NCBI GenBank assembly: GCA_023053545.1
Contig: JAKZAN010000005.1
Span: 12,462,001-12,526,000, forward strand
DNA: 64,000 bases
Source: Lepidurus packardi
Taxonomy: Eukaryota > Arthropoda > Branchiopoda > Notostraca > Triopsidae
Reading direction: 5' to 3'
Made by a program: the position numbers and the translations under genes
Part shown: positions 29,101-56,900 of the stretch, piece by piece
How the letters are laid out: each line of letters begins with the position of its first letter
Numbering within the stretch: the stretch's first letter is position 1
Notes under the pieces: generated by a model
The model's database searches: none
Told to the model about the DNA's origin: nothing
Seen by the model: the letters and a program-made list of their open reading frames with translations, nothing else

Positions 29101-31777
29101 GATCGTTCCATTGCCGTCTGGGACATGGTTTCCCCTACGGAGATCAACCTACGTCGCGTTTTAGTCGGTCACCGCGCTGCGGTGAATGTGGTGGACTTTG
29201 ATGAGAAGTACATCGTCTCCGCCTCGGGCGACCGTACCATCAAAGTCTGGTCGACTTCCACTTGCGAGTTTGTGCGCACGCTCAACGGCCACAAACGCGG
29301 CATTGCGTGCCTACAGTACCGGGATCGGCTCGTGGTATCGGGCTCGTCTGATAATTCGATCCGATTATGGGATATTGAATGTGGCGCATGCATCCGCGTC
29401 CTTGAAGGACACGAGGAACTCGTGCGATGCATCCGCTTCGACAACAAAAGGATCGTCTCAGGCGCCTATGACGGCAAAATCAAAGTATGGGATTTAGCTG
29501 CCGCCCTTGACCCTCGTGCACCTGCTGGTACCCTCTGCCTAAGAACTTTAGTGGTAAGAATCCCTTTTCTATGACCTATTTTCGATTTTTTCCGAATTAT
29601 TTTTATTTTTTTATTATTTTTATTAGATTTTTTTTTATTTTTATTAGATTTTTTTTATTGTTTATGAAACCGTCGATATTTTTCTTTATTTTAGAATTTG
29701 ATTTAATTTCGCACTTCTCGATTTTTTTTAAAAAAAAAAATTGAATTTCTAAGTTTTTTAGGATTTTATTTAAATTCGTACTTCCAGATTATTAAGTATT
29801 TTTAGATTTTTTTTTTGTTCCTTGGATATTTTTCTTTGTTTTAGGATTTTCGTTAATTTTCTACTTTTATTTTTTTATTATTATTTTTTGGATTTTTTTT
29901 TAATTCTAAATATTTTAAAATGTTTTTCCTGAATTTTTAATTATTTATTATTTTTTTTAATGAAACTATTTCAGATTTTTATCTCTTATTTTCAGATATA
30001 TTTAGGACATTCATTTCTGAATTTTCTTGTATTATTTTATTTAAATTCGTACTTCTCGATTAAAAAAAAACGAATTTCTAAGTATTTTTACATTTTGTTT
30101 GTTCCTTTGATATTTTTCTTTGTTTTAGAATTTTCGTTAATTTTGTACTTCTATTTTTTTATTAATATTTTTTTTTTATTTTTTTGAATTCTAAATATTT
30201 TTAAATGTTTTTCCTGAATTTTTAATTTTTTTTTTTATGAAAGTATTTCAGATTTTTATCTCTTATTTTCAGATCTATTTAGGACATTCATTTCTGAATT
30301 TTCTTGTATTATTTTATTTAAATTCGTACTTCTCGATTTAAAAAAAAACAACGAATTTCTAAGTATTTTTAGATTTTTTTTTCCTTTGATATTTTTCTTT
30401 GGTTTAGGATTTGCGTTAATTTTGTACTTCTATTTTTTTATTATTATTTTTTCAGATTTTTTTTTAATTCTAAATATTTTTACATGTTTTCCTGAATTTT
30501 TTTTTTTTTTATGAAACTATTTCAGATTTTTATTTCTTATTTTCGGATCTATTTAGGACATTCATTTCTGAATTTTCTTGTATTATTTTATTTATATTCG
30601 TACTTCTCGATTTAAAAAAACGAATTTCTAAGTATTTTTAGATTTTGTTTGTTCCTTGTATATTTTTCTTTTTTTAATATTTTCGTTAATTTTGTACTTC
30701 TATTTTTTTTATTATTATTTTTTTAGATTTTTTTTAATTCTAAATATTTTTAAATGTTTTTCCTGAATTTTTAATTATTAATTATTTTTTTTTTTAATGA
30801 AACTATTTCAGATTTTTTTCTCTTATTTTCGGATCTATTTAGGACATTCATTTCTGAATTTTCTTGTATTATTTTCTTGTATTAAAAAAACGAATTTCTA
30901 AGTATTTTTTGTTTTCCTTTGATATTTTTCTTTGTTTTAGGATTTTAGTTAATTTTGTACTTTTATTTTTTTATTATTATTGTTTTGATTTTTTTTTATT
31001 CTAAATAAATTAAAAAAGAGTCTCGTGCTCTACCGACCGAGCTAGCCGGGCAATTCTAAATATTTTTTAATGTTTTTCCTGAATTTTTAATTTTTTTTTT
31101 TTTTTTTGGATGAAACTATTTCCGATTTTTATCTCTTATTTTCGGATCTATTTAGGACATTCATTTCTGAATTATCTTGTCAGTGCGTGGATGTATTATT
31201 TTATTTAAATTCGTACTTCTCGATTTAAAAAAATGAATTTTTAAGTATTTTTAGATTTTTTTTTGTTCCTTTGATATTTTTCTTTGTTTTAGAATTTTCC
31301 TGAATTTTGTACTGCTATTTTTTTATTATTATTTTTTAGATTTTTTTGATTTTTAAATATTTTTACATGTTTTTCCTAAATTTTTAATTATTTTTTTATT
31401 TTATTTTGATGAAACTATTTCAGATTTTTATCTCTTATTTTCGGATCTATTTAGCACATTCATTTCTGAATTTTCTTGTCGTGTCGTAATTAATTATTTT
31501 ATTCCATTATTTTATTTTATTAGTTTAAAAAAAAAATCGAAAATTTTTCGATTTTTGCGTATAAAGATCGGACAGTGCTAATGTTTTTTTTTTTTTTTTT
31601 CTTTTTTTTTTTTAGGAACACACGGGTCGCGTGTTCCGGCTACAGTTCGACGAGTTTCAAATAGTTAGTAGTTCTCATGACGATACAATCTTAATATGGG
31701 ATTTCTTAAATTGTGGACCGGCTCCGGATGGCTCCAAGCTTTCTCCTCAACGCACCTATACCTACGTCTCGAAGTAA
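26128..31777 (+). CDS. slmb: Beta-TrCP / Slimb F-box WD40 ubiquitin-ligase subunit
   Basis: Substrate receptor of the SCF ubiquitin ligase; recognises phosphodegrons such as those of beta-catenin and Ci/Gli. Exons: 26128-26172, 26430-26697, 26814-27094, 28023-28385, 29101-29553, 31616-31777 (1572 nt, 523 aa). Domains in order: a dimerisation (D) domain at about residues 50-90 ([15 protein letters not shown]), the F-box at about 105-145 ([26 protein letters not shown]), and seven WD40 repeats from about 200 ([48 protein letters not shown]). It ends RTYTYVSK. Sequence is very close to the vertebrate and fly family from the D-domain on; the N-terminal 45 residues are not conserved. Introns 3 and 5 carry large arrays and intron 5 is 2062 bp. 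Confidence 0.97.
27077..27484. repeat. 319-bp duplication carrying slimb exon 3 end and splice donor
   Basis: The segment from 27077, covering the last 18 coding bases of exon 3, its gaagtaagg donor and about 70 bp of intron, recurs from 27396 with one substitution. The second copy is an exon remnant with an intact decoy donor inside the intron. Confidence 0.92.
27165..28012. repeat. T-rich low-complexity tandem array in slimb intron 3
   Basis: Repeats of tttctgttattttattattgttatt and similar, ending in a long T tract before the exon at 28023. A perfect inverted repeat of the tttctgtttatttttgttta type lies near 27166-27235. Confidence 0.8.
29600..31560. repeat. About 280-bp tandem array in slimb intron 5
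   Basis: About six diverged copies of an AT-rich unit marked by atttaggacattcatttctg, with further blocks gaaactatttcagattttt and aaattcgtacttctcgatt. The markers begin near 30002, 30290, 30551, 30837, 31151 and 31449. Confidence 0.88.
31007..31052 (-). pseudogene. tRNA-Lys 5' half inserted in slimb intron 5
   Basis: Read on the minus strand from 31051, the sequence starts GCCCGGCTAGCTCGGTCGG and continues TAGAGCACGAGACTCTT. This matches the acceptor-stem 5' strand, D arm (A box tagctcggtcgg) and anticodon stem-loop start of a eukaryotic tRNA-Lys with anticodon CTT. It stops in the anticodon loop; the 3' half is absent. The 46-bp insert is flanked by attctaaat at 30998-31006 and 31053-31061, looking like a 9-bp target-site duplication, and none of the other array copies has it. 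Confidence 0.8.
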
Positions 31778-34471: not shown

Positions 34472-34787
34472 GTTAAAATCGTTAAAATACAATAAAGCCA
34501 GAAATTACTCCAGTAATTTGAAGATATATGTTAAAATACAACGTCTTGCTTCGACGTTAAAACCCGCACTATACTGCAATTTTGTCCGTTGTTAAATCTT
34601 TTCATCGAAGCTAAAACGTTGCATTAGAATAGCAGGACAGCAGCTGTTTTCAAAGTATAGAAAATGCATTCACGTAGTTAAGTGTATTTCATTCATGGAC
34701 ATCTATGCTTTGGAAACGCATTACTTTGTTATTAGTTTATTGCATGTGGTAAAAGAATAAACAGTATTAGAGCCTTCCATTCCAGAT

Positions 34788-35021
34788 GTCATTATACAGC
34801 AGTTTCTCGAATTGTATCGCGCTACGTATTCCACGTTGCACCCTGTTCTAAAACTTAAACCGGAAGGATCAACACTTCATCAAAAAATGCTGCTTTACTT
34901 CCAGGTTCATTTGCATCATTTTGCCAATTATTTTGATCGCAGCCCGCAACAATGCTGCAGCGAAACTGAAATTGGATGGTCCAAGTCATTTTCGAAATGG
35001 ACAATGGGATCTGTATTAACA
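34788..35021 (+). other. Orphan exon-like open frame
   Basis: A strong acceptor (ccttccattccag) is followed by 78 open codons (VIIQQFLELYRATYSTLHP through GWSKSFSKWTMGS) and then a good donor (acaa|gtacgt). No partner exons were found on either side and I do not recognise the protein. It may be a stray exon of a lost or transposed gene, or chance. The rest of 34472-35332 contains nothing else I can support; it must include the promoters of the divergent FkbM-type and MMS19 genes. Confidence 0.35.
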
Positions 35022-35332
35022 AGTACGTATCCGCTTCATTTGTACTATACGGTCCATTGAAAAATGGCATAGGAAAATCCCGACAGTCTAATTTCTTTAT
35101 TAATCTTTCCATTTTATGAATATTTCTTACTGTTCTATTTATTCACAATCGGGCAATCCATACTAATTAGAACTCTACTTGAGCTAACCCGTTTTATCCT
35201 AAGTTTAGAAAAGAAAAGAAAATGAATTTTTCCTATTGAATTGTGCGCCATGGTAACTAGCGCCAAACATTCGGCGTAACTCTACACTAAAACAGCTGGT
35301 GTTTGCGAACACCACGTGCCTTTGGAACGGTG

Positions 35333-38300
35333 ATGTCAAAAATGGATATAAATACGAATATTTTAAGCTGGGTGGAAATAGTTGATAAAGGAGATGAAAC
35401 CGAAATTAACACCCAATGTTCTTTATTAGCAGAAGGTAAGTAAATCCCTTTTCTTTTAGTTAAAATGTGGAATAATAATTTAAACCGACTGTTCTAATGA
35501 CCATCTGTGATTGAGACTGCAAAAGCCGAAAAAAATAATTAACCATCTTTGTACCTTGTACCTTATAAACGTTGTTAAATATAGAATATTTACTATCATT
35601 ATTATTATTATTTTTATTATTATTTTTCAGGTGTGAAAAACGGAACTGTTAACTTATTGGACACTGTTGTAGCAGCCGAACGACTTTTAACAGCGCCAGA
35701 TACTGGTACCAGATCTGCAGTGGTTTCTGCCTTTGCGAAATTAATACACTACAGTGGAGATACGCTTGACGCCCCCAAAATTGCCGTTTTCATCGATTTT
35801 TTCACGGCGAAGCTATTAGATCACTTCTCGTTAATTCCAGGAGCTTTACAAGGCCTATTAGCACTCGTAAAATACATTATTCGCTTTCGCCAAATGATCC
35901 TATTTATTCTATTTTGGGTATTAGAGCCAGACAAAACACATACCAGATGGCCAGGCGCGCCAGATTCTCACTGTGCTCTTTCGTGAAGTGAATTGCCAGT
36001 CCATGTTGCAGCCTGAACGCCGGAATTTCTATCTCATTATCCGCAACTTGCTCGAGCGTAAAACGCAAGGTAAACTCACGCTGAACTCCATTAAAACCAC
36101 ACTTTTCAATACTCTGATTGGATTTTTCCGTAGAATTACAAGCGATGGGTACCGATTTAGTACTTGGACTAGTACAAGCCATGGATAGCGAAAGAGACCC
36201 GCGTAATCTGCTGCTTTTATTCAGGTTCTTGCCGGCTTTCTTCCAGTTAGTTGATCCAGGACCTTTGGATGAAGAAATTTTCGAAGTAATTTCCGCCTAC
36301 TTCCCAATTGAGTTTAGCCCGGTAAGTAAATGCGCATAATTCTCAACACATTCTCCTAAAAACAAAGCTCTAATACTCAATAATAGTATAAACTAGAAAT
36401 CCATGTATTACCGTAATAGTACTACATAATAATAATAATAATACCCTAATAATACTATATAATAATAATAATAATAGTCTATTACTTAAAGCAAAGCTGT
36501 AATATAACATGAGTAAACTCCTAAGAAAACAAAACACTTGAATCGAATAAAGGTCATGTGTTTTGTTACCTTAATTCAACGCCATCTAGCGCCTGAATCT
36601 TTCCCCATTGCCATAGTGCAAGCATAACAACTTTGCTTTTATCGATAATGTGCCCGTTAGATGGCACAGTTTTGACTAAAAACAGTCCAACAACAACAAC
36701 TTTGCTTTTATCGATAAAGTGCCCGTTAGATGGCACAGTTTTGACTAAAAACAGTCCAACAACAACAACTTTGCTTTTATCGATAAAGTGCCCGTTAGAT
36801 GGCACAGTTTTGACTAAAAACAGTCCAACAACAACAACTTTGCTTTTATCGATAATGTGCCCGTTAGATGGCACAGTTTTGACTAAAAACAGTCCAACAA
36901 CAACAACTTTGCTTTTATCGATAAAGTGCCCGTTAGATGGCACGGTTTTGACTAAAAACAGTCCAACAACAACAACTTTGCTTTTATCGATAAAGTGCCC
37001 GTTAGATGGCACAGTTTTGACTAAAAACAGTCCAACAACAACAACTTTGCTTTTATCGATAATGTGCCCGTTAGATGGCACAGTTTTGACTAAAAACAGT
37101 CCAACAACAACAACTTTGCTTTTATCGATAAAGTGCCCGTTAGATGGCACAGTTTTGACTAAAAACAGTCCAACAACAACAACTTTGCTTTTATCGATAA
37201 TGTGCCCGTTAGATGGCACAGTTTTGACTAAAAACAGTCCAACAACAACAACTTTGCTTTTATCGATAAAGTGCCCGTTAGATGGCACAGTTTTGACTAA
37301 AAACAGTCCAACAACAACAACTTTGCTTTTATCGATAATGTGCCCGTTAGATGGCACAGTTTTGACTAAAAACAGTCCAACAACAACAACTTTGCTTTTA
37401 TCGATAAAGTGCCCGTTAGATGGCACGGTTTTGACTAAAAACAGTCCAACAACAACAACTTTGCTTTTATCGATAAAGTGCCCGTTAGATGGCACAGTTT
37501 TGACTAAAAACAGTCCAACAACAACAACTTTGCTTTTATCGATAATGTGCCCGTTAGATGGCACAGTTTTGACTAAAAACAGTCCAACAACAACAACTTT
37601 GCTTTTATCGATAAAGTGCCCGTTAGATGGCACAGTTTTGACTAAAAACAGTCCAACAACAACAACTTTGCTTTTATCGATAATGTGCCCGTTAGATGGC
37701 ACAGTTTTGACTAAAAACAGTCCAACAACAACAACTTTGCTTTTATCGATAAAGTGCCCGTTAGATGGCACAGTTTTGACTAAAAACAGTCCAACAACAA
37801 CAACTTTGCTTTTATCGATAATGTGCCCGTTAGATGGCACAGTTTTGACTAAAAACAGTCCAACAACAACAACTTTGCTTTTATCGATAATGTGCCCGTT
37901 AGATGGCACAGTTTTGACTAAAAACAGTCCAACAACAACAACTTTGCTTTTATCGATAAAGTGCCCGTTAGATGGCACAGTTTTGACTAAAAACAGTCCA
38001 ACAACAACAACTTTGCTTTTATCGATAAAGTGCCCGTTAGATGGCACAGTTTTGACTAAAAACAGTCCAACAACAACAACTTTGCTTTTATCGATAATGT
38101 GCCCGTTAGATGGCACAGTTTTGACTAAAAGCAGTCCAACAACAACAACTTTGCTTTTATCGATAAAGTGCCCGTTAGATGGCACAGTTTTGACTGAAAA
38201 ACAGTCCAACAACAACAACAACTTTGCTTTTAAATCATTATAAATTTGTGTTAATATTTATAGGCAATATATACCCTTTTTAGAAAATTTGTAGAATATG

Positions 38301-41300
38301 TAGACCCCCCCTTTCAACAAAAAATAATCGGATTTGTATTTTTTATTTTTTTTTTATTTTTTTTTAGCCCGCTAATGATCCCCAAGGCGTAACACGAGAA
38401 GCGTTATCCGAGAGTTTGCGGCTAACTATAGCTGCCAGTCCTCGTTTGGCTCAGCATTGCTTACCATTTCTGTTGGAAAAATTAGAAGCCACACAAGTAT
38501 CAGCTCGCACGGAATCGTTTCTAACACTAGTAAATCTTCAGTTTCTGTCTAGTTTGCATAAAAATCGTAATTACTGTCCTATTGTCACAGGAATGCTGCT
38601 GCGCTACTTATACTGCTGCGCAAATGAACCCATTTTTGGACGCCTTTTGGACAGCCATTCGCAAAGAGCTGTTTTTGGCGCTGAGCATGGGTCCAGATCG
38701 TGAAAAAGCTGAAAGAGCAGCCTTGGATTTCTTAGCGGCCGTAATGCGATTGGTGGCGGCCCAAGATCCACTCGAAGTCCCAGCCAAACGCATCCTGGAT
38801 CGAATAATTGAAGGTTCAAACGCCTAAAAACTGCTTTTCAACTCCCAAACTCGAACTGGCCGTTTTTAGATTGCAAATCCCATTTGAAACAGCCAGAACA
38901 CAGATTAGTGTTCCCTAGCACCCAGATTCTGTCTGCCTTAACAGCGTCTGCAGCAGCAGCGACGCTCGTATTCCAACAAGTAACGTTTTTTTAAAGAAAA
39001 TAAGCCAAATAATGCAAATATTGCTTGTTAGATTGTGCCTTTGCTGGCCGAATTGTGTATGACTCACACGCTAGCTTCCCAACGTGCCACTTTACTGGAA
39101 GTTTTGCAGCGATTACTTCGAGCTTGTCGAGAATGTGGCAACGAACAAGTTACGCGTCATTTGGTTCCCAAATTGCTAGATTTGCTAAGCCATTTCCCCA
39201 ACGAAGAAGACCCGAGCTTGAAATCACAGCTATGGCTCAACTACGCGGTTCTGGTGGGCGTGTTACCCGCGCCTGACTTGCAGAAACTGTGCCACAACTT
39301 GCAATTAGCTATTGTGGAAGAAAAGCGAGATGTTGTGAGGTAAAATTCGAATCCAAAACGTATTTTTCGCGACACTTTTTGAAAAAAATTCTTTTTGGCT
39401 CCTAGGGAAGCGTTGAAAGTTGCAGTGCGTAACCTTGACGCGTTGAATCCGAGTTTAGTCGCTACTCAAATTGCCAGTCCTTTGGCACAGAGTGGGCAGA
39501 GTGACTCGTTATGGATCTTGGCCACTTTAAGTGCCACTGAGGAGCTCATGGATAACGTGTGGGAGCCTTTGGTAGCCAAATTGACCCCTGAAAACAGCCC
39601 TGCAGTGTTGGAATGCCTAGCAACCTTATCCCGTAACTCGAGGCAGTACATGTCTGTGTTCCCAGAGCGAGATCATAGCACCCTAATCCAAAAAAGCGTG
39701 CAAAGATGTCTGGAATTGCACACTTGGATCCTCCGAAATGCGTCCAACCATCTAACAAGGGTTAAGAACGTTGGTGCAGTGTTGCGAAATTTGTCGGGAA
39801 TCTGGACGCCTCAGTAAGTGTGAAATTGCACTGTAAAAAAAAAAGGAAAAATTAGAATGTTTATAATTTTATAATTTTGTTTATAATTTTCTATGTTTTC
39901 CAGAATATGTCAAGAATATGGCGAGAAATTTGCTGCGTATTACATTCAAGGCAAGCAGTATGATGTATTTCCTCAAAGTACTGGCGCTCTTCTTGACCAA
40001 CGACCTGTTTTGGTACTTTTGAAAAGTTTGGAAATTTTGGAAATTTTGAAACCCTTTTTAAGGCTTCATTTCTTAATTAGTGAGTCATTTGGGACGGTTT
40101 TTTGGTAGGTTTTAGTACTGGAGTCCATTTTGGGATGGTTTGTTACTCTCGAGCTCGAACTAGAGCCTCTGGTGAAGAAATTAGTCGAGATTACTTCGAT
40201 GAGCGCGGAGGAAGACATCCAGGCCAGTTGTGGGCGTTTAATTGCTGCCCTGGTCAACAAAATCGCGACTGGTAATATCTCCAACTGTTTAAAAAACGTG
40301 CCAATCGCTTATTTTTGGATTTTTTTATTATTATTATTATGATTATTACTCATTTTTATTTTTAGTTAATTTTTGTTATTATTTATTTTTGTATTTTTTT
40401 TATTATTATTATTGTTATGATCATTACTCATTTTAATTTTTAATTAATTTTTAGTATTATTTATTTTTGTATTTTTTTGTTCTTATTATTATTATGATTA
40501 TTACTCATTGTAATTTTTAATTAATTTTTATTAGTATTTATTTTTGTATTATTATTATTGTTATTATTATTATTATGATTATTATGATTATTACTCATTT
40601 GAATTTTTAATTCATTTTTATTAGTATTAATTTTTCTATTTTTTTGTATTATTATGATTATGATCATGACTCACTTTAATTTGTAATGAATTTTTATTAT
40701 TATTTATTTTTGTATTTTTGTATTATTATTATTGTTATTATTATGATTATTACTCATTGTAATTTTTATTGAATTTTTATTTGTATTTATTTTTTTATTA
40801 TTATTATTTTTTTTAGAAGACGAGTTGGAGCGAGTTTTGAAGTGCATTGATGACTGTTTGAGGCCAACCGAGTTCCGTGCGCATGCGTACACATACATAT
40901 GGGTGACTAAAGCGTTAGCGATGCGCGGCTTTTTGGGTTTAAAGCAGTGTTTACAAAAGGTAGGTTTTTTTCGAACTATTTTTAACTATGTTAACTTAGT
41001 TATCAGAGATTTTCTGTGTGGTTTAGTTGTGCGATTCTTTGAATATTTGGACCAGCGATATTTCTGCCGACTGGGCGTTGCTGTTGAAAGAAGAAGAAGC
41101 GAGTTTATGTCCATCCAGCCATGCTTGCATCAAGTACAACGTTTTATGATTTTTTTATGATTTTTTTGTAAGATTTTCTAACAAAAATGTGGGGTTGTAT
41201 TACTAGGTTATTGTACCGGCAACGGCTGTTTAGTTTGATAGTGCCATTGCTGATTAGCGCCTTCCAAAACGCATCTGAAGATCAGAAATCAGTTTATTTA

Positions 41301-42002: not shown

Positions 42003-45000
42003 TCAGTTACTCAAAAAGTCAATTGCTGCGTGCACGACGCTGTTGGTGTTAACTTCTAACGCAGAAACGCGTATTTCTGTGTCTCCGAACTCCATGGCAG
42101 TACGTATTTCCGGCCGAGCACCTTTCCAGTGCTCCAGCTGCAAACGCAGTAATGCGCATTCTTTCATGCCATTATCTGTGACAAACTGCGAAGAATTTTC
42201 TTTGCAATTTCTGGCAGTTATTACGTAATTTTTAGGAGTTTTTACCTCAGCATCTTCCAGTTCAGTGCAGTAAATGCGCAGTATGATGTGTTTCTGGTTC
42301 TTGCGCGCAGGCGCGTACCTGCGTATTACTACGTCACCGCGCGAAATGGCCTGGTCTGCAACAACGAATTTGTCAAACGCGTCAGTACACCATTCCCGGC
42401 CATCTTGGACCACTAACTTATCTAGAAGCAACGATTGCGCAAATAATAAATAAAATAAATTAAAACAGACTAAATAAATTACGATAAATTAAATTAAAAC
42501 ATACTAAATAAATTACAATAAATTAATTAAAACATACTAAATAAATTGCAATAAATTCAACTAAAACAGACTAAATAAATTACAATAAAATAAATTACAA
42601 TAAATTAAGTTAAAACATTAAATACATTACAATAAATTAAATTAAAACAGACTAAATAAATTACGATAAATTAAATTAAAACATACTAAATAAATTACAA
42701 TAAACTAAATTGAAACAGACTAAATAAATTACAATAAATTCAATTAAAACAGACTAAATAAATTACAATAGATTAATTAAAACATACTAAATAAATTGCA
42801 ATAAATTCAACTAAAACAGACTAAATAAATTACAATAAAATAAATTACAATAAATTAAGTTAAAACATTAAATGCATTACAATAAAATAAATTAAAACAC
42901 TAAATAAATAACAATAAATTAATTTAAAGCAGACTAAATAAATTACAATAAATTCAATTAAAACAGACTAAACAAATTACAATAAATTCAATTAAAACAG
43001 ACTAAATAAATTACAATAAATTAATTAAAACATACTAAATAAATTGCAATAAATTCAACTAAAACAGACTAAATAAATTACAATAAATTCAACTAAAACA
43101 GACTAAATAAATTACAATAAAATAAATTACAATAAATTAAGTTAAAACATTAAATACATTACAATAAATTAAATTAAAACAGACTAGATAAATTACAATA
43201 AACTAAATTGAAACAGACTAAATAAATTACAATAAATTAATTAAAACAGACTAAATAAATTACAATAAAATAAATTAAAACAGACTAAATAAATTACAAT
43301 AAATTAATTAAAACAGACTAAATAAATTACAATAAATTCAATTAAAACACTAAATAAATAACAATAAGTTAATTAAAACAGACTAAATAAATTACAATAA
43401 ATTAAATTAAAATAGACTAAATAAATTACAAGAAATTAAATAAATGATAAATAAAGTATACCAGTAGCATGTGCGCCCCTTATAAACGGCTGCAGAACTG
43501 ATACTCCGTAAGTTAACCGTGTTCTGCGAACTGCGACTGCGCTGGGATCCAATCCGTACAAAACTGCGCCTTTTAGAATGGCTAGGCTTACGCCCTGCGC
43601 ATAAAAGTTCTAAAGTTGATATTTCTGCGCGTAAAGTAATCTACAGTACCTGGGGAATTACTATGTGCAGTCGCCGGCTGAATACGTCTCGTATTTCGTA
43701 CTGCAGCAAGGGGGATTCGGCGAAGCCACCCACTAGGAACAAGTACTGGATTTCGTTGTCCCCAAATTTCTGCAAAACTTGCGTCACGTGCTCCGTGATG
43801 GTTTGGAGGGTTGGACGGAAGAGTTCTTTCATGATAGCTTGATCTAAGCGCAGCATTCCTTGCGAGGACCAGCGCACGTGCGTATGCGCGTACTTGCGTA
43901 TGGCCCATTCCACTTCGCGTCCTTTGTACTTGCGGTACGCGTCGATGAACGCAAAGGGCAGAGCTACGTTGAGAGGAGTACAGCGGAAAGGACTGGCGTT
44001 GCGCTTGCGCGCTTCGAACGCTACCAGCAAATCTACAAAAGCTGCTGGCCGGTGCAGTTTGAAGTGCGCAATGAAGTCGGAGCCGAAGATCCCACATAAT
44101 AACTTTTCAAACGCTAAATCCACCTCTAAAAAATAATAAATAAAATTTTTAACATAATAAAGTGTGGCTAGTTATCTTTCTACGTAAGATGATTAGGCAG
44201 TACCTATAGATCCACATGACCCGCCTGAGGCACGATGTAGTTCGCGTAAATTGCCTTGGGCGTCAGCAATTTCATGTACTGTCATGTCAACCGTCCCTCC
44301 CCCGCAGTCAACCACCAAGTACCGCGTACCAAGCCGGGATTCCATTGCTGGAAGGGTCTGTAAGTACTCTGAGCGCGGACGAGTATCTGATGACCAGGGT
44401 TTCAGTACTGGAGCAGTCGAATGGTCCCTTGGAGGTACAAGGTGCAGTTCGGGTGGCTTTTCGGGCTGCAGCTGTCCTACCCGGAGTGTTCTACAGTAAA
44501 GTGACGCTGCTTCAGGTTCTAGAGCAATCAACAAACGGTCCCTTTGTGCATCTGACGCGATTCCAGCCTGAGAATCGTTTGAGAATTTCGTGATGTTTTG
44601 TTTTAGTACAGCATTAGAAGTTAGAACGTACTTGGTAAGCTGCTTCACGCATAAATTGCTTCGCTTGGGGACGCCAGATGGCCGGTACTGTCACAACCCA
44701 TCGAATATCATCTTCCAAAATGGGCGTGGCCAAGTGATCAGAGATTTCTCGTAGGGCATGATCCCTGAAGAATCGCAAGGCGTGGCTAAAAACTGCCATT
44801 GCTGGCAAAGATGCGCCATTCTGCGCTTGTATCTGCGTCTCACGGTTCAAGTTCTAGAACAGTATCAGGGTAAGCATTTGTAATTTCCATTGTTGACACC
44901 AAATATCGTGGGGCGAGTTTGCGGAAGTAGAAAGTTATATTGCTTTTATATTCTTTATTAAATTCTTTTATTTTAAAAATGTAATCAGCGAATAATTCTC

Positions 45001-46010: not shown

Positions 46011-48130
46011 GTCGAGACTCGGAAGAACCCACAGGATGTTATGTTACAAACCCTAAAACGTAACTGAAAGGAATGTCGAGTGCTTCGACTCCGAAACTAT
46101 AGCATAGCTCTTATGAGGACACGGTATTGGACGCGTAGGTGTGTAAACGGGGTGTTTCTCAGGCGGTAACCTGACCTGGGCTTAGAGTAGGAGGTGCAGG
46201 CCCCAAGTTTTGGGGAGTTCGAAAACGTGTCCGAACCATGGATTCACTTGACACCTTGGAAAACCGTACCGGTTTTCAAGCCATGCTTCCTGGCTTCCAT
46301 TTCAGGATTAGGTTACCAGTCCCACACAGCAGTGAACTCAGACAACACAAACCCTTACCATTCCATTTACTGACGTCACCTTGCTAAAAGTTATGGCCTT
46401 TTAAAACTTAGCCGTATTGTATCAAGTTAAAAGGTTTTCCCCCCACTTCAAAACCTCAAGGGACCAATGACAATCAAGTCAGGCAAACTCAATAATGAAT
46501 CTATTGTGGTGCAACAACAAGATTCACTGTTGAATTCACTGTTGTTGGCATGCTTCCATTCCATCATTTCATCGGATCCTGTGTTACAAAAAGTCTGACA
46601 TCTTGTTCATGATAGGATACTTTCGGAAGCTATATGAAAATCAGAACAAAACCATGTAGATAATTGGTGAAAGCATTTGCAAAAGTTTTAGTATTTGTAC
46701 TGCGAGTTGGGAGCCTCTAGTGTTGATTCCGAGAGTTTGATTTAGTACAACCTTAGATCATAAATACTATAGACAATATAAATATTATGACAATGAAGTC
46801 AGGCAAACTCAATAATGAATCTATTGTGGTGCAACAAGATTCACTGTTGAATTCACTGTTGTTGGCATGCTTCCATTCCATCATTCCATCGGATCCTGTG
46901 TTACAAAAAGTCTGACATCTTGTTCATGATAGGATACTTTCGGAAGCTATATGAAAATCAGAACAAAACCATGTACATAAATGGTGAAAGCATCTCAAAA
47001 GTTTTAGTATTTGTACTGCGAGTTGGGAGCCTCTAGTGTTGATTCCGAGAGTTTCATTTAGTACTACCTTAGATCATAAATACTATAGACAATATAAATA
47101 TTATGACAATGAAGCCAGGCAAACTCAATAATGAATCTATAGTGGTGCAACAAGATTCACTGTTGTTGGCATGCTTCCATTCCATCATTTCATCGGATCC
47201 TGTGTTACAAAAAGTCTAACGTCTTGTTCATGATATGATACATTCGGAAGCTATATGAAAATCACAACAAAATCATGTAGATAATTGGTGAAAGCATTTG
47301 CAAAAGTTTTAGTATTTGTACTGCGAGTTGGGAGCCTCTAGTGTTGATTCCGAGAGTTTGATTTAGTACAACCTTAGATCATAAATACTATAGTGTATAA
47401 TATATGATCTAAGAGAGTACAATCTTAGATTAATCCTAGTACGATTCGGGAGAATTGAACCAGAACGACACTATAAGTTAAGAAACTGTCTAGTAGACTA
47501 CCTTAAAGATACTAAACTGATAGAAGTTGTGTAATTTTTATTGTTTTCCCCGTTTCTTTACCAATAATAAGATCTTATAGAAAGTTTGTTTCTGAATAAT
47601 AATAACCTTTTCCCCTAAAAAAAATCAAAAATAGTCGATAATGTGGCCAATAATAGTCGATAATAATCGATAATAGATAATAGTCGATAATGTGGCCGAT
47701 AATAGTCGATAATGTGGCCGATAATAGTCGATAATGTAGTCGATAATGTGGCCGTTAGATGGCACAGTTTTCACTAAAAATAGATCAACAGATCAATCAT
47801 AGTACAAGATAGATCATATACAATATATCTTATATCATATATCTTAGTTCAAGAATATGATCATATACATTAATTTATAATTTAGAAGTACAAATAGTAC
47901 AACACATTTAGTTTACTACAACAATAAAGAACATAAATATCTTACTAGAAAGCAACGCTCGATGCCAAATTCTTTTTTGAAAGACTATAACTAAGATATT
48001 GGTAAAGATGACATTAATAAAAGCCAGTTGTTTGATAACACTTGTATTTCCACACCCATCTCCCTCGCGATTACAACTGCAAAAAGTTGTCTTGCGGGGT
48101 TCATAAACAGCATAAGAAGTTTTATTTTTC
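46011..48130. repeat. Spacer with about 318-bp tandem triplication
   Basis: Upstream of the HSPA12-type gene and downstream of SRP68. Three copies of a unit of about 318 bp begin at 46469, 46789 and 47105, marked by aggcaaactcaataatgaat and gcgagttgggagcctctagt. Next, at about 47630-47790, short repeats of tagtcgataatgtggcc lead into one copy of the gttagatggcacagtttt core shared with the MMS19 minisatellite. No gene recognised. Confidence 0.88.
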
Positions 48131-51100
48131 TCACTGCTTCTTGCCTCCCCAACCCCATAAACCTTTAACCAAGCCTGTAAGTCCACCTCCAGCAGCTGTG
48201 GCTTTCTTGCTTTCTAACTTATGTTCCAATGACGGGAGTTTGATGTGGTTCAACGCCAAATCGAAGAACAAAGGTTTGCAAGGAATAGGGATCATATCCG
48301 GAGGCAGTTTGACAATATTAGGTTGGTTGGTAAGGTACGAAGGGTCTTCGTAATACACATCCAAACGGTCAAGCAAAGGCTATTTTCATAAAAAAAAAAC
48401 AAAAAAAAAAATCCAAAAAATTACTGCCATTCCAAAACTTTAACGTATAAAAAAAAGTTACCAATTTCGTAATATCGCTGCTCAGAGCTGGTGAATCATC
48501 GATACCAACCAAGCTTCGTGCCTGGGCTGTTATTTTCCCCGTACGCGACTTTTCGAGCAAATCATCCAACAATGCTTGTTTCTGGACTTGATAACGTTGG
48601 AAATCCTGGTCCAATTTAGTTGGCGACTTCTGAACAGCTGACGCATGGAATTCTACGCGATTGTATAACACGGAAGCTTCGGCCCAATGTTTGGCTTGTT
48701 GGAATGCTAACGCCATATAATAGCATCTACCCAAACCCAATATATCAAATACAATTTTCCTAACTTTTTCTATTTCTTTAAAGGGAATAACGCACCTCAC
48801 TCCCTTGAAAATTTGCAAAACAAGGTCCAAATTAGCCTTAAAACCTTGATCGGTCTCTAATCCGGGAATTCCGTTCAATTCTCCGACAAGCTGCAAAATT
48901 TGCTCCAGCAAGCGAATGATATCTTGCGGTTTTCCGCTTTTCTTGCTCTCGTTCTATAAAATATTTAGTTTTTTAATCATACATACCATTTGTAGGTAGA
49001 AAAACAGAGCGAAATTGTGTATTACCTGCTGTAGAGCCGAGCTAATGGCTTCAATCAGCAGCAAATTGCGATCCATAGTCAAAACAACGCGCAAATAAGT
49101 CAAATGGCTCAGTAGATATTGCAGCGAGCTCACTCCTTCTTCAGGCGCGCGATTTTTCAACGTCTTCATCATAATAAAAAGAAATAAGAATATGAAATCC
49201 TAGTAGAAGTGGTGTAATTTTTTTTAAGATAAATATATATTTTAAGATATATATATTTGTAAGATAAATATAGAAATATTTTTATATAAGATCGATAGAA
49301 AGATCAAGACCAATAATAAGTTCAATAGAAAGCTTGTTTCAGAAATAATCTATATCCCAAAAAAATAAAAATAAATCAGAAATATTAAATGGTCACAAGT
49401 AGTCAATAATGTGCCCGTTAGATGGCACAGTTTTGACTAAAAACCGCTAAAAACTTTTTTAGATAATAATAAGATCAATAGAAAGATCAAGACCAAGTTC
49501 AATAATAATAATAATAATAATAATAATAAGTTCAATAGAAAGCTTGTTTCAGAAATAATCTTTATCCCAAAAAAAAAAAAAAAAATCAGAAGTATTAAAT
49601 GGTCAGAAGTAGTCGATAATGTGCTCGTTAGATGGCACAATTTTGACTAAAAACCGCTAAAAACTTTTTAGATAATAATATGATCAATAGAAAGATCAAG
49701 ACCAATAATAAGTTCAATAGAAAGCTTGTTTCAGAAATAATCTTTATAAAAAAAAAAATAATAAATCAGAAATATGAAATGGTCAGAAGTAGTCGATAAT
49801 GTGCCCGTTAGATGGCACAGTTTTGACTAAAAACCGCTAAAAACTTTTTTAGATAATAATAAGATGAATAGAAAGATCAAGACCAATAACAAGTTCAATA
49901 GAAAGCTTGTTTCAGAAATAATCTTTATCCAAAAAAAAAAAAAAAAATCAGAAATATTAAATGGTCAGAAGTAGTCGATAATGTGCTCGTTAGATGGCAC
50001 AGTTTTGACTAAAAACCGCTAAAAAACTTTTTAGATAATAATAAGATCAATAGAAAGATCAAGACCAATAACAAGTTCAATAGAAAGCTTGTTTCAGAAA
50101 TAATCTTTATCAAAAAAAAAAAAAAAATCAGAAATATTAAATGGTCAGAAGTAGTCGATAATGTGCCCGTTAGATGGCACAGTTTTGACTAAAAACCGCT
50201 AAAAACAGTCCAACAACAACAACAGAATATGAAATCAAATAAATTCAATAAAATTATTCAATAAACTAAATTTCTAATGACTGATGATTGAAATACGAAA
50301 ACGCTGTACCGGATTAGCATTCAACTCGTCTTTCACGTGCTGGATACAATCCCTGCAGTCCAGAAGCAGAGATTCGTAGACAGAAACTTTCCCTTCAGAC
50401 CCTGCTTGGGCTCTAGCTAAGGATTTCTCCAAATCTCCCACGTTTAGCAAGAATAGACGCAGTTTTTCCGAACGAATCGGCACAGTGCGCCCGCGCCAAG
50501 TGACTTCCAACAAAGAAGCCGCTTCCTTCTCTCGAGTTTGGGCAATCAAGGCCTACAAACTCAAATCTTAGAGCCTCTTTGTCCATGTTTTCTAGCAAAG
50601 TGGAGCTTAAATATACGTCTAAAGTGTCAGCCAGCTCTCCTCCTTGACCTCGCATCTTCAACAAGTCATCTTGGGCCGAAACGTCGCCGATATTATAAGC
50701 GCAATAGCGTAAGGATGGTGCCAATTCATCCAACTTTTGCTTATAAGGTCCGCGATCATCTTCGTGTAGCGCATTGCTGAGCTTCTCGTAAATTGTTCTA
50801 AGTTTCAACACGTTAGGTTTTGACATTAAGTCGTGGTTATGTTTACTGAGCTTTGTGAAGCTCTTCGCTCGCTCCTGGCCAATCATGGAGCTCAAAGGCC
50901 AAATTGCCTCGCATCCAAGCGGCGTAAGCTTGGGCTTCTAACTTGGTGCGAGCGTCACACATGTCGCTCTGACATAAAGTTTCCAGCAAAGTCACGTGCT
51001 TCACCGCTTTTTTCAGGCGAGAATTTAAGTGGAATTTCTTCCTCGGTTCTGTGTTGGATTCTTGTTTGAGCTGCATGGCGTAACTCCATGAACGTTCGGC

Positions 51101-53939: not shown

Positions 53940-56900
53940 ATGGAGAAAGAACAGGATCAGGACAAAAGAAAGCGTCATTCGCTTCTCTCTCAGTATTATG
54001 GAATCTCCGAAGAAAAAGAAATGGGAAATCCGTATGACATCAATGGGAAAAGTTTTAATCCGGATATGTATTTGCAAAAAGTTATCAAGGTCAGTTCTTA
54101 AACTTGCAGACTTAATATTACTATTACATCTGACTTCAACCTTTATTTTCCTCAACAGGAGGCGAGTTTAAAACAACTGATGGACAAAGAAAAGGAAATT
54201 GTACGCGAAATACAAACCTTAGATTCGGATATGCAAACTCTGGTTTATGAAAACTATAATAAATTCATTTTGGCCACCGACACCATCCGACAAGTACACT
54301 AATTCCTCCACTGATACGTTTATTTAGTATTATTTACTAATTTTATTTGACTTGCATTTTGTTTCGTTTTTATTCTGCATATTTTACACACTTCTTTTCC
54401 ATTATTTTTTATATTCTTGTTTTTTAGATGAAGGACGACTTCAAGGAAATGGAAAACGAGATGGATAAGCTCGTCAAGAACATGGATGACATAACCAAGT
54501 TTTCTTCGGCCATTTCCGAAACTTTGCACGATAAACGCCATACAATCTCCCAATTGTCTTCCGCGCATTCCATGCTAAAGAAACTCCAGTTTCTTTTCGA
54601 CCTCCCCACCCAAATGAAGCAACATATCCAAGAAGAAAACCCAGCCAAAGCTGTCCAAATGTACAGTCGCGCCCAGCATTTGCTCGAAGACAACAAAACC
54701 TTGCCCGCATTCCAAGGATTGTACAGCGATTGCCAGTCCATCGTCGAATCCCTTCGCCAACAATTGCTTTCCCAACTGAAAACAGGCGACGCTCCTCCTC
54801 CTGTTGCTGTAGCGACAGTTCGTCACCTGATTCTCTTGGGGTTTTCTCCCCAAGAACTGTCTTCCGAAATTCTGGAGCAAGCTACCACCAAACTAAACCA
54901 AGATTTGCAAGTTTTGGAGAAACTATCCACTCCACCAGATCCGGATACGCCTGCAACGACTCCAACTCCAATTCCAACACCTTCAACTATGGTAAAACAC
55001 AGAAATAATGAAGTTTGTATGCATTTGAAACCAATTCTGGTCCAATTTTCTTAGGATTTATTGGAATTTGTGGACCTCTGCGTCAATGGACTGCTTCAGC
55101 ACATATATTTGTACGCTTCCTCGTTCAAAGACTTCTTTCCCACAGCCAGTAGCACGACTGAAGCTTATCCATGGGCCAGTCTCTGTCAGTTTTGCGTCCA
55201 AAAGGGCTTGCAATGCTTCCTGAGAAAGATTTCTTGGAGTGGAGATGGTGGAAGAGACTGTACCTTGTTAGTTAGAGCTCTAGAACGCTGGCAGAAGAAA
55301 GTAGCCGAGTTAGACATCGTATTACCTGCTGTGTTAATCCAGAAGTATTGATTTCTTCGCTTCTTTGGACGAATCTTTCGAAAGTTTCTTTTTGAAGAAT
55401 TTTTCCGAATTTGTTTCGTATTTTTGACGAATTTTCCCAATTTCTTTTTTTCGAAATTTTGACATTTTTTCAGACTTTCTTTGGAAGATTTTTGTCAAAT
55501 TTGTCGTATTTTTTACAAATTTTTCCAAATTTTTCCAAACTTCCTTTTCGAAGAATTTTTCTATTTTTGAGGAATTATTGGAAATTTCGAAATTTTCCAA
55601 ACTTTCTATTTGAAGAACAAGTTTTTTCGTATTTTTGACGAATTTTTCGAGATTTTTTTCGAAACTTTCCGAAATTTTTTCAAATGTGAAAATTTTCCGA
55701 AATTTTTCCAAACTTCCTTTTTGACGAATTTTTCTTTTTTTGAGGAATTATTGGAAATTTCGAAATTTTCCAAACTTTCTATTTGAAGAACAAATTTTTT
55801 CGTATTTTTGACGAATTTTTCGAGATTTTTTTCGAAACTTTCCGAAATTTTTCCAAATGTGAAAATTTTCCGAAATTTTTTCAAACTTTCTATGGAAGAT
55901 TTTTTTCAAATTTTTCGTATTTTTACGCATTTTTCGAAATTTTTCCAAACTTCCTTTTTGACGAATTTTTGTTTTTTTGAGGAATTATTGGAAATTTCGA
56001 AATTTTCCAAACTTTCTATTTGAAGAACAAGTTTTTTCGTATTTTTGACGAATTCGAAACTTTCCGAAATTTTTCCAAATGTGAAAATTTTCCGAAATTT
56101 TTCCAAACTTCCTTTTTGACGAATTTTTCTTTTTTTGAGGAATTATTGGAAATTTCGAAATTTTCCAAACTTTCTATTTGAAGAACAAGTTTTTTCGCAT
56201 TTTTGACGAATTTTTCGAGATTTTTTTCGAAACTTTCCGACATTTTTCCAAATGTGAAAATTTTCCGAAATTTTTTCAAACTTTCTATGGAAGATTTTTT
56301 TCAAATTTTTCGTATTTTACGCATTTTTCGAAATTTTTCCAAACTTCCTTTTTGACGAATTTTTCTTTTTTTGAGGAATTATTTTAAATTTCGAAATTTT
56401 CCAAACTTTCTATTTGAAGAACAAGTTTTTTCGTATTTTTGACGAATTTTTCGAGATTTTTTTCGAAACTTTCCGACATTTTTCCAAATGTGAAAATTTT
56501 CCGAAATTTTTTCAAACTTTCTATGGAAGATTTTTTTCAAATTTTTCGTATTTTTACGCATTTTTCGAAATTTTTCCAAACTTCCTTTTTGACGAATTTT
56601 TCTTTTTTTGAGGAATTATTGGAAATTTCGAAATTTTCCAAACTTTCTATTTGAAGAACAAGTTTTTTCGTATTTTTGACGAATTTTTCGAGATTTTTTT
56701 CGAAACTTTCCGAAATTTTTCCAAATGAACTTTCCGAATTTTTCCTTTCCGAAATTTTTCCAATTTTCCGAAATTTTTCCAAACTTTCTTTTTGACGAAT
56801 TTTTCTATTTTTGACGAATTATTCGAAATTTTCCAAACTTTCTTTTCGAAGAACGAAGAGAAGTTTCTTTTCTTTTCGAAGAGAAGTTTTTCATATTTTT

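Follow-up and report, generated by a model that had tools for sequence, protein, structure and literature searches.

A 69-bp minisatellite in an MMS19 intron of Lepidurus packardi whose unit combines a LINE 3' end with a presumed target-site duplication

An intron of the MMS19 gene of Lepidurus packardi carries a minisatellite of 23 copies of a 69-bp unit. By sequence comparison, about 53 bases of this unit are the 3' end of a LINE with a (CAA)n tail, and the remaining 16 bases, AACAACTTTGCTTTTA, are consistent with the target-site duplication (TSD) left by a single copy of that element that was heavily truncated at its 5' end. In our judgement, with a probability of about 0.88, the array originated from a single truncated LINE insertion, followed by exchange or slippage seeded by the TSD and by expansion.

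The window, that is, the whole stretch of 64,000 nucleotides analysed and the one to which positions refer below unless a contig or locus is named, was scanned with TRF, which revealed a repeat of period 69 with 23.1 copies and a 98% match at 36626-38219. Cutting at the unit produced 23 copies from position 36629, 22 of them of 69 bp and the last one of 73 bp, confirming the array described in an earlier note on this DNA. The whole array (36626..38232, + strand), in which 24 copies of the 16-mer alternate with 23 LINE fragments, has the size of a minisatellite (69 bp x 23, 1.6 kb, compared to units of roughly 10-100 bp and lengths of about 0.5 to several kb). A core motif of the unit was matched 29 times in the window, 23 of them within the array, versus 0 in 100 shuffles. 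The units are of two types, reading GATAATG (M) or GATAAAG (K), and follow one another exactly in the order that the earlier note gave, MKKMKKMKMKMKKMKMKMMKKMK. Also as claimed there, among the 23 split units CACGGT was confined to copy 5 (36905..36973, +) and to copy 12, seven units later (37388..37456, +), and homogeneity was nearly perfect, with 21 of the 23 units differing among themselves only at the M/K site or at the CACGGT base. Copy 22 carries a private A>G, and copy 23, the unit at the array edge (38147..38219, +), a private extra G plus an extra CAA.

The location of the array in MMS19, also proposed previously, was borne out by Pfam. Four of the five MMS19_N (PF14500) matches of the genome are found here, three upstream and one downstream of the array, the nearest ones at positions 12498109-12498324 and 12500335-12500535 of contig C4 (36109-36324 and 38335-38535 of the window). 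The exon translations, with MMS19_N matches on both sides, delimit a phase 0 intron of 2046 bp (36322..38367, +; GTAAGT...TTTTTTAG), whose flanking exons translate as ...YFPIEFSP and PANDPQGVTREAL..., in frame across the intron, and 79% of which is taken up by the 1607 bp of the array. The fifth MMS19_N match lies on the 54-kb contig C342 (locus L093), in an MMS19 homologue that is open only if TAA and TAG encode an amino acid, as they do in many ciliates; this contig looks like a ciliate sequence that entered the assembly as a contaminant or from an epibiont or parasite. Its possible identity as a second MMS19 allele was rejected, as the frame reads through TAA/TAG and no match was printed when the 1.6 kb fetched from it was compared by blastn and tblastx with positions 34501-40500. 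Taken as another organism, it is uninformative on the copy number of the array.

As a separate observation on the assembly, COX1-family frames without internal stops in the standard code were present in three small contigs (C52, C214 and C43), which are probably bacterial. Contigs C1, C2, C4, C5, C6, C21 and C38 carry numerous COX1 matches that contain TGA codons and are probably mitochondrial DNA copied into the nucleus; several of those on C4 lie at 0.78-1.54 Mb. Arthropod-type (TTAGG)n repeats stand at the end of contig C3, and one nuclear COX1 copy resembles crustacean COX1.

The phase of the array can be read from the 16-mer, which has 24 copies in the window. They lie on either side of every one of the 23 LINE fragments, spaced 69 bp apart 22 times and then 73 bp once, so that the array reads TSD-(LINE-TSD)x23 and is bounded on both sides by a direct repeat of which each unit holds one copy (24 TSD for 23 LINE fragments). 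The left outer presumed TSD (36626..36641, +) is followed by the first LINE 3'-end fragment (36642..36694, +), a 53-bp fragment of M type that is truncated at TCGATAATG, ends in the (CAA)n tail and was delimited from genome matches and the flanks of dispersed copies. The right outer presumed TSD (38217..38232, +) is followed by AATCATT, which is outside the unit, and beyond the outer TSDs the sequence differs on both sides. The true TSD measures 10-16 bp, with a secure part of only 10 bp, since AACAAC could equally belong to the (CAA)n tail. Part of the unit necessarily recurs at the ends of any tandem array. Here, however, that part is precisely the non-LINE part and has the size of a TSD, which is the informative point: a random phase would produce this boundary about once in 69. 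Among the fetched loci (see below), the 16-mer was not found except in L001-L008, where the fetched sequence overlaps the array. The truncation point is common to all 23 units, which start with TCGATAATG/TCGATAAAG.

The LINE part belongs to a dispersed family. Of the 68 matches that a whole-genome search with the unit gave among the best candidates scored, 23 are the array copies. The other 45 start almost without exception at about unit position 16-19, with identities of 92-98%; one starts at position 9, and one ends at 53. The core motif, allowing up to 3 mismatches, was found 170 times in the genome and 0 times with the reversed control. The homology of the unit to a dispersed transposable element (TE) is thus supported by at least 45 scored matches and by 147 core matches outside the array. 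From the genome, 79 regions picked for having the core were fetched, and the 93 core copies in them are a subset of those in the genome. The usual 3' end reads GACTAAAAACAGTCCAACAAC(AAC)n, with variants, and the 5' cut-off points vary among the dispersed copies. Long copies run upstream into a 3' UTR and, in L018, into a frame with RNase H (Pfam RNase_H PF00075, E 3.5e-14; RVT_3 PF13456, E 2.9e-5), upstream of which, in this one copy, a 330-aa ORF had no Pfam match. The element resembles I-superfamily-type LINEs, which have RNase H near the 3' end, a tri-nucleotide 3' tail and TSDs of about 13 bp, but this is a likeness only; its tail is CAA and, in the one copy with RNase H, the ORF upstream has no Pfam match.

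Many dispersed copies are short. By a rough word test, a GAAAG block further upstream was absent from 29 of the 93 fetched copies, 24 of which matched the upstream reference over less than 42 bp (L035 was misjudged by this test, owing to an indel). Ultra-short insertions ending just 5' of the 3' stem-loop or inside it were observed at L012, L028, L046, L061, L068, L070, L090 and others. It is as if reverse transcription of this LINE often aborted at the 3' stem-loop. On folding, the stem-loop of the LINE end reached -17.6 kcal/mol (z -3.76, 0 of 200 shuffles as good), and its shortened form in the array unit was weaker (-14.6, z -2.44, 4 of 200 shuffles as good); that this structure stalls copying is our conjecture.

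Dispersed copies were also scanned for TSDs. Exact direct repeats of at least 11 bp starting at the tail and recurring upstream were detected for 39 of the 93 copies, compared to 6 of 93 when the downstream probe was displaced by 120 bp; low-complexity words and words present in two or more other loci were dropped. Not all of the 39 are clean TSDs, as a few stem from tandem neighbours (L009, L027, L034, L047) or repeat-like words (L013). The commonest length of these TSD-like repeats was 13 bp, and in 52 of the 93 copies the scan found no exact repeat of at least 10 bp. An initial scan of 140 bp upstream had given 27 of 93 versus 6 of 93 at a threshold of at least 10 bp. Inserts about as small as that in the array, with exact flanking repeats, were seen at L012, L028 and L090, and by eye, with one mismatch, at L046. 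The family therefore combines 5' truncation, a simple-repeat 3' tail and TSDs of variable length, the anatomy of LINE insertion by target-primed reverse transcription. A Helitron-derived minisatellite was considered and rejected: Helitrons are defined by lacking a TSD and by a 3' hairpin followed by CTRR, whereas TSD-like repeats are present here and the tail is (CAA)n.

Fragments of U2 snRNA (Rfam RF00004) adjoin LINE copies at L072 (630-688, E 2.3e-5), L087 (1079-1157, E 6.4e-4) and L088 (1091-1235, E 3.1e-6), all below the gathering score; they look like U2 retropseudogenes or chimeras that the LINE machinery generated.

Comparison with the dispersed copies gave the M/K variation a direction. 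GATAATG was read in 79 of the 99 non-array copies of the fetched regions and the window, and GATAAAG or CACGGT in 0 of these 99. In the whole genome, the K-variant pattern GATAAAGTGCCCGTTAGATGGCAC had 13 matches, all 13 in the array. M is the ancestral form, and K is private to the array. Tight head-to-tail junctions, with 0-30 bp from tail to core, were likewise confined to the array (22 of 22 genome matches, and 9 of 9 with a narrower pattern), although diverged junctions would escape this search and that for K, as both used exact patterns.

The earlier note had further proposed a recent duplication of seven units, supported by two unlinked markers and expected to appear as a 483-bp off-diagonal extending over exactly seven units. 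When offsets of 1-15 units were compared, the offset of 483 bp gave the longest exact run, of 689 bp (36719-37407 vs. the same positions +483; full extent 36719..37890, +); the runner-up, found at offsets 138 and 345, was half as long (344 bp). The off-diagonal is therefore present, but it spans about 10 units and hence not exactly seven; as neighbours matching by chance would lengthen the run of a seven-unit tandem duplication in the same way, its breakpoints cannot be fixed. Neither are the markers unlinked, since the M/K and CACGGT sites lie 19 bp apart within one unit. The statistical tests were chosen after the pattern had been seen. A repeated block of nine units including a CACGGT unit arose in 40 of 20,000 shuffles and in 531 of 20,000 fitted first-order M/K chains with two randomly placed markers. 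With the M/K order alone, a block of this length or more was repeated in 1,558 of 20,000 shuffles and in 9,943 of 20,000 first-order Markov sequences. Since such blocks are so common in the Markov control, the M/K order by itself does not speak for a higher-order repeat, and its weight had been overstated, whereas the CACGGT units keep a duplication plausible. Mainly on account of these two marker bases, a seven-unit duplication within the array is likely.

A coding function of the array was rejected as a repeat artefact. Long open frames cross it at 36566-38221 (-) and 36633-38243 (+), with 551 and 536 codons open on the two strands, as is usual for a unit whose length, here 69, is divisible by 3 and in which a frame lacks a stop. 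The antisense frame scored against PhaG_MnhG (E 2.9e-17) and two DUF families in Pfam, but no stretch of it passed alone, and the sense frame had no Pfam match. No Rfam family reached its cut-off anywhere in the window, arguing against a structured or catalytic RNA. The array is most likely a by-product without function; the earlier note had predicted that its copy number would vary strongly between individuals and might affect MMS19 splicing.

The above results suggest how the array was most likely built. A LINE would have landed in the MMS19 intron by target-primed reverse transcription, with only its last ~53 bases kept and with a TSD that measured at most 16 bp; the presumed pre-insertion site is deduced from one assembly. 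The two TSD copies would then have acted as short flanking direct repeats, between which unequal exchange or replication slippage would duplicate the LINE fragment together with one TSD and yield a 69-bp tandem. Unequal exchange or conversion over this longer homology would have expanded the tandem to 23 copies, spreading the K variant born in the array, and a block of about seven units would have been duplicated later. The anatomy and phase of the array, the common truncation point, the tendency of the family to make TSDs and the M-to-K polarity are observed; that exchange or slippage made the first duplication, and in what order the events followed, is inferred.

If the LINE had inserted again and again at one target site and left a further copy and TSD each time, the TSD-element-TSD-element order would be identical, and this route is described for other TEs (PMC12628747, PMC9659126). 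The locus L072, arranged as 12-mer, U2 fragment, 12-mer, LINE, 12-mer, even looks like two events at one site. However, target-primed reverse transcription truncates at variable points, as seen in the dispersed copies, and all 23 units start alike, which argues against repeated insertion; in addition, K is private to the array genome-wide and CACGGT among 99 copies. By this indirect test of truncation point and private variants, the array does not behave as independent insertions of the TE double insertion type, and the uniform truncation point largely refutes such an origin, which we regard as highly improbable. The opposite relationship, in which the array was the source of the dispersed copies and the satellite was acquired by the LINE end, has in its favour only the 53 bp shared by both. 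It is next to incredible, as the 16-bp spacer is found in none of the fetched dispersed loci (79 regions), K is seen in 0 of 99 dispersed copies and the long dispersed copies extend into LINE sequence with RNase H.

The high homogeneity of the units (compare the 21 of 23 that differ only at the M/K or CACGGT base) would also be expected from one saltatory event, for instance by rolling-circle or break-induced template switching with a small LINE-plus-TSD circle as the template, but the interspersion of M and K and the seven-unit CACGGT offset would require at least two rounds, making a single event very improbable. As near-identical arrays are often misassembled, the number or order of units might finally be an artefact of the assembly, which would be compatible with the origin from one insertion preferred here. 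Even so, this is very improbable, given that the variants are ordered and not random, that the edges stand out, with private variants in copies 22 and 23, and that 1.6 kb is short for long reads.

Other tandems of the same LINE were found in the window and in the 79 fetched regions, within which TSD-phased arrays elsewhere were assessed. TRF arrays with a period of at least 15 overlap 17 of the 100 core copies examined, in six loci and with the MMS19 array counted once, fractions that are not genome rates as the regions were chosen for carrying the core. In the window, a LINE insertion beside an SRP68 exon (50413-50895, Pfam match) spans 49187..50236 (+) and has a 13-bp TSD, AGAATATGAAATC, at 49187 and 50224 only; by TRF, this insertion grew internally, as 3.8 copies of a 182-bp unit in which the TSD is not included. 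A third, more diverged LINE 3' end of the window (47740..47790, +) is preceded by a degenerate 22-bp tandem repeat of its GATAATGTGGC part (47626-47737). Elsewhere, L047 on contig C2 is a dimer that by eye reads CATAATAGTTACT-LINE-CATGATATTTACT-LINE-CGTAATACCTACT, its three 13-mers having diverged and its two LINE copies being truncated at one and the same base; on this inspection by eye we read it as an older, diverged instance of the process behind the MMS19 array. In a second array, L027, the unit consists of the LINE end and a 13-mer that is missing from the outer flanks and whose last 12 bases are also present at L072, so that a TSD origin is only suggested. At L069, two LINE copies lie by eye inside one pair of near-repeats, with no repeat between the copies. 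From L069 and the SRP68-adjacent array it follows that tandems of this LINE also arise by other routes. The window contains further large tandem arrays at 29793-31007 (274 bp), 42449-43445 (periods of 34, 67 and 250), 46467-47393 (317 bp) and 55464-56727 (173, 236 and 395 bp).

A more general proposal would be that the stable 3' stem-loop of this LINE makes it leave many ultra-short (about 45-75 bp), TSD-flanked insertions that nucleate minisatellites, with the TSD as the seed and the stem-loop as the stall site. We consider this doubtful; if true, there would be a class of introns with locus-specific arrays of LINE end plus TSD, in which truncation point and TSD record each birth.

Minisatellites derived from Alu were reportedly described by Jurka and Gentles. 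According to a review (PMC6947457), the Haber-Louis model has short direct repeats of 5-10 bp flanking the future unit. In a human survey (Ahmed and Liang 2012; PMC3389668), 300 of 7,276 TE-derived arrays have flanking direct repeats of 5-20 bp, 7 bp being the majority size, and established models cover only 6% of the TE-derived arrays. The MMS19 array shares with the Haber-Louis and Alu-type minisatellites a TE fragment with short flanking direct repeats that was tandemly amplified, and differs from them in that a LINE 3' end takes the place of Alu and that the repeats flanking it would be the TSD made by the insertion itself. That such a direct repeat would have preceded the amplification is suggested by the TSD-like repeats at other copies (39 of 93 versus 6 of 93). 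Among the routes given in a 2025 review (PMC12628747) are exchange between LTRs or internal repeats and double insertion at TSDs, the latter being the origin reportedly proposed for Drosophila TE dimers (McGurk and Barbash 2018, as cited in PMC12628747, PMC11899658 and probably PMC9659126). Such dimers reportedly resemble the MMS19 array in having inter-copy junctions with the size and sequence of a TSD, whereas the common 5' truncation point of the latter points to the duplication of one insertion. The common cetacean satellite and other satellites from LINE 3' ends, as presented in PMC9659126, are also tandems of a LINE end, in contrast to which the MMS19 case is one intronic array of 1.6 kb with a locus-specific TSD in its unit. 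The same paper mentions TSDs as microhomology, and further relatives are tandem LTR elements (PMC11899658) and a foldback-derived satellite (PMC4079207). In this partial, open-licence literature no description of a LINE's own TSD as the seed of a minisatellite was found. The kind of array is known, a TE-derived minisatellite seeded by flanking direct repeats, of which the MMS19 array is an unusually legible member. The first duplication of minisatellites is poorly documented. As the element, its truncation point and its TSD can all be recognised here, the array reveals its founding event and allows insertion followed by exchange to be told from repeated insertion, with the truncation point as a fingerprint usable on any LINE-derived array.
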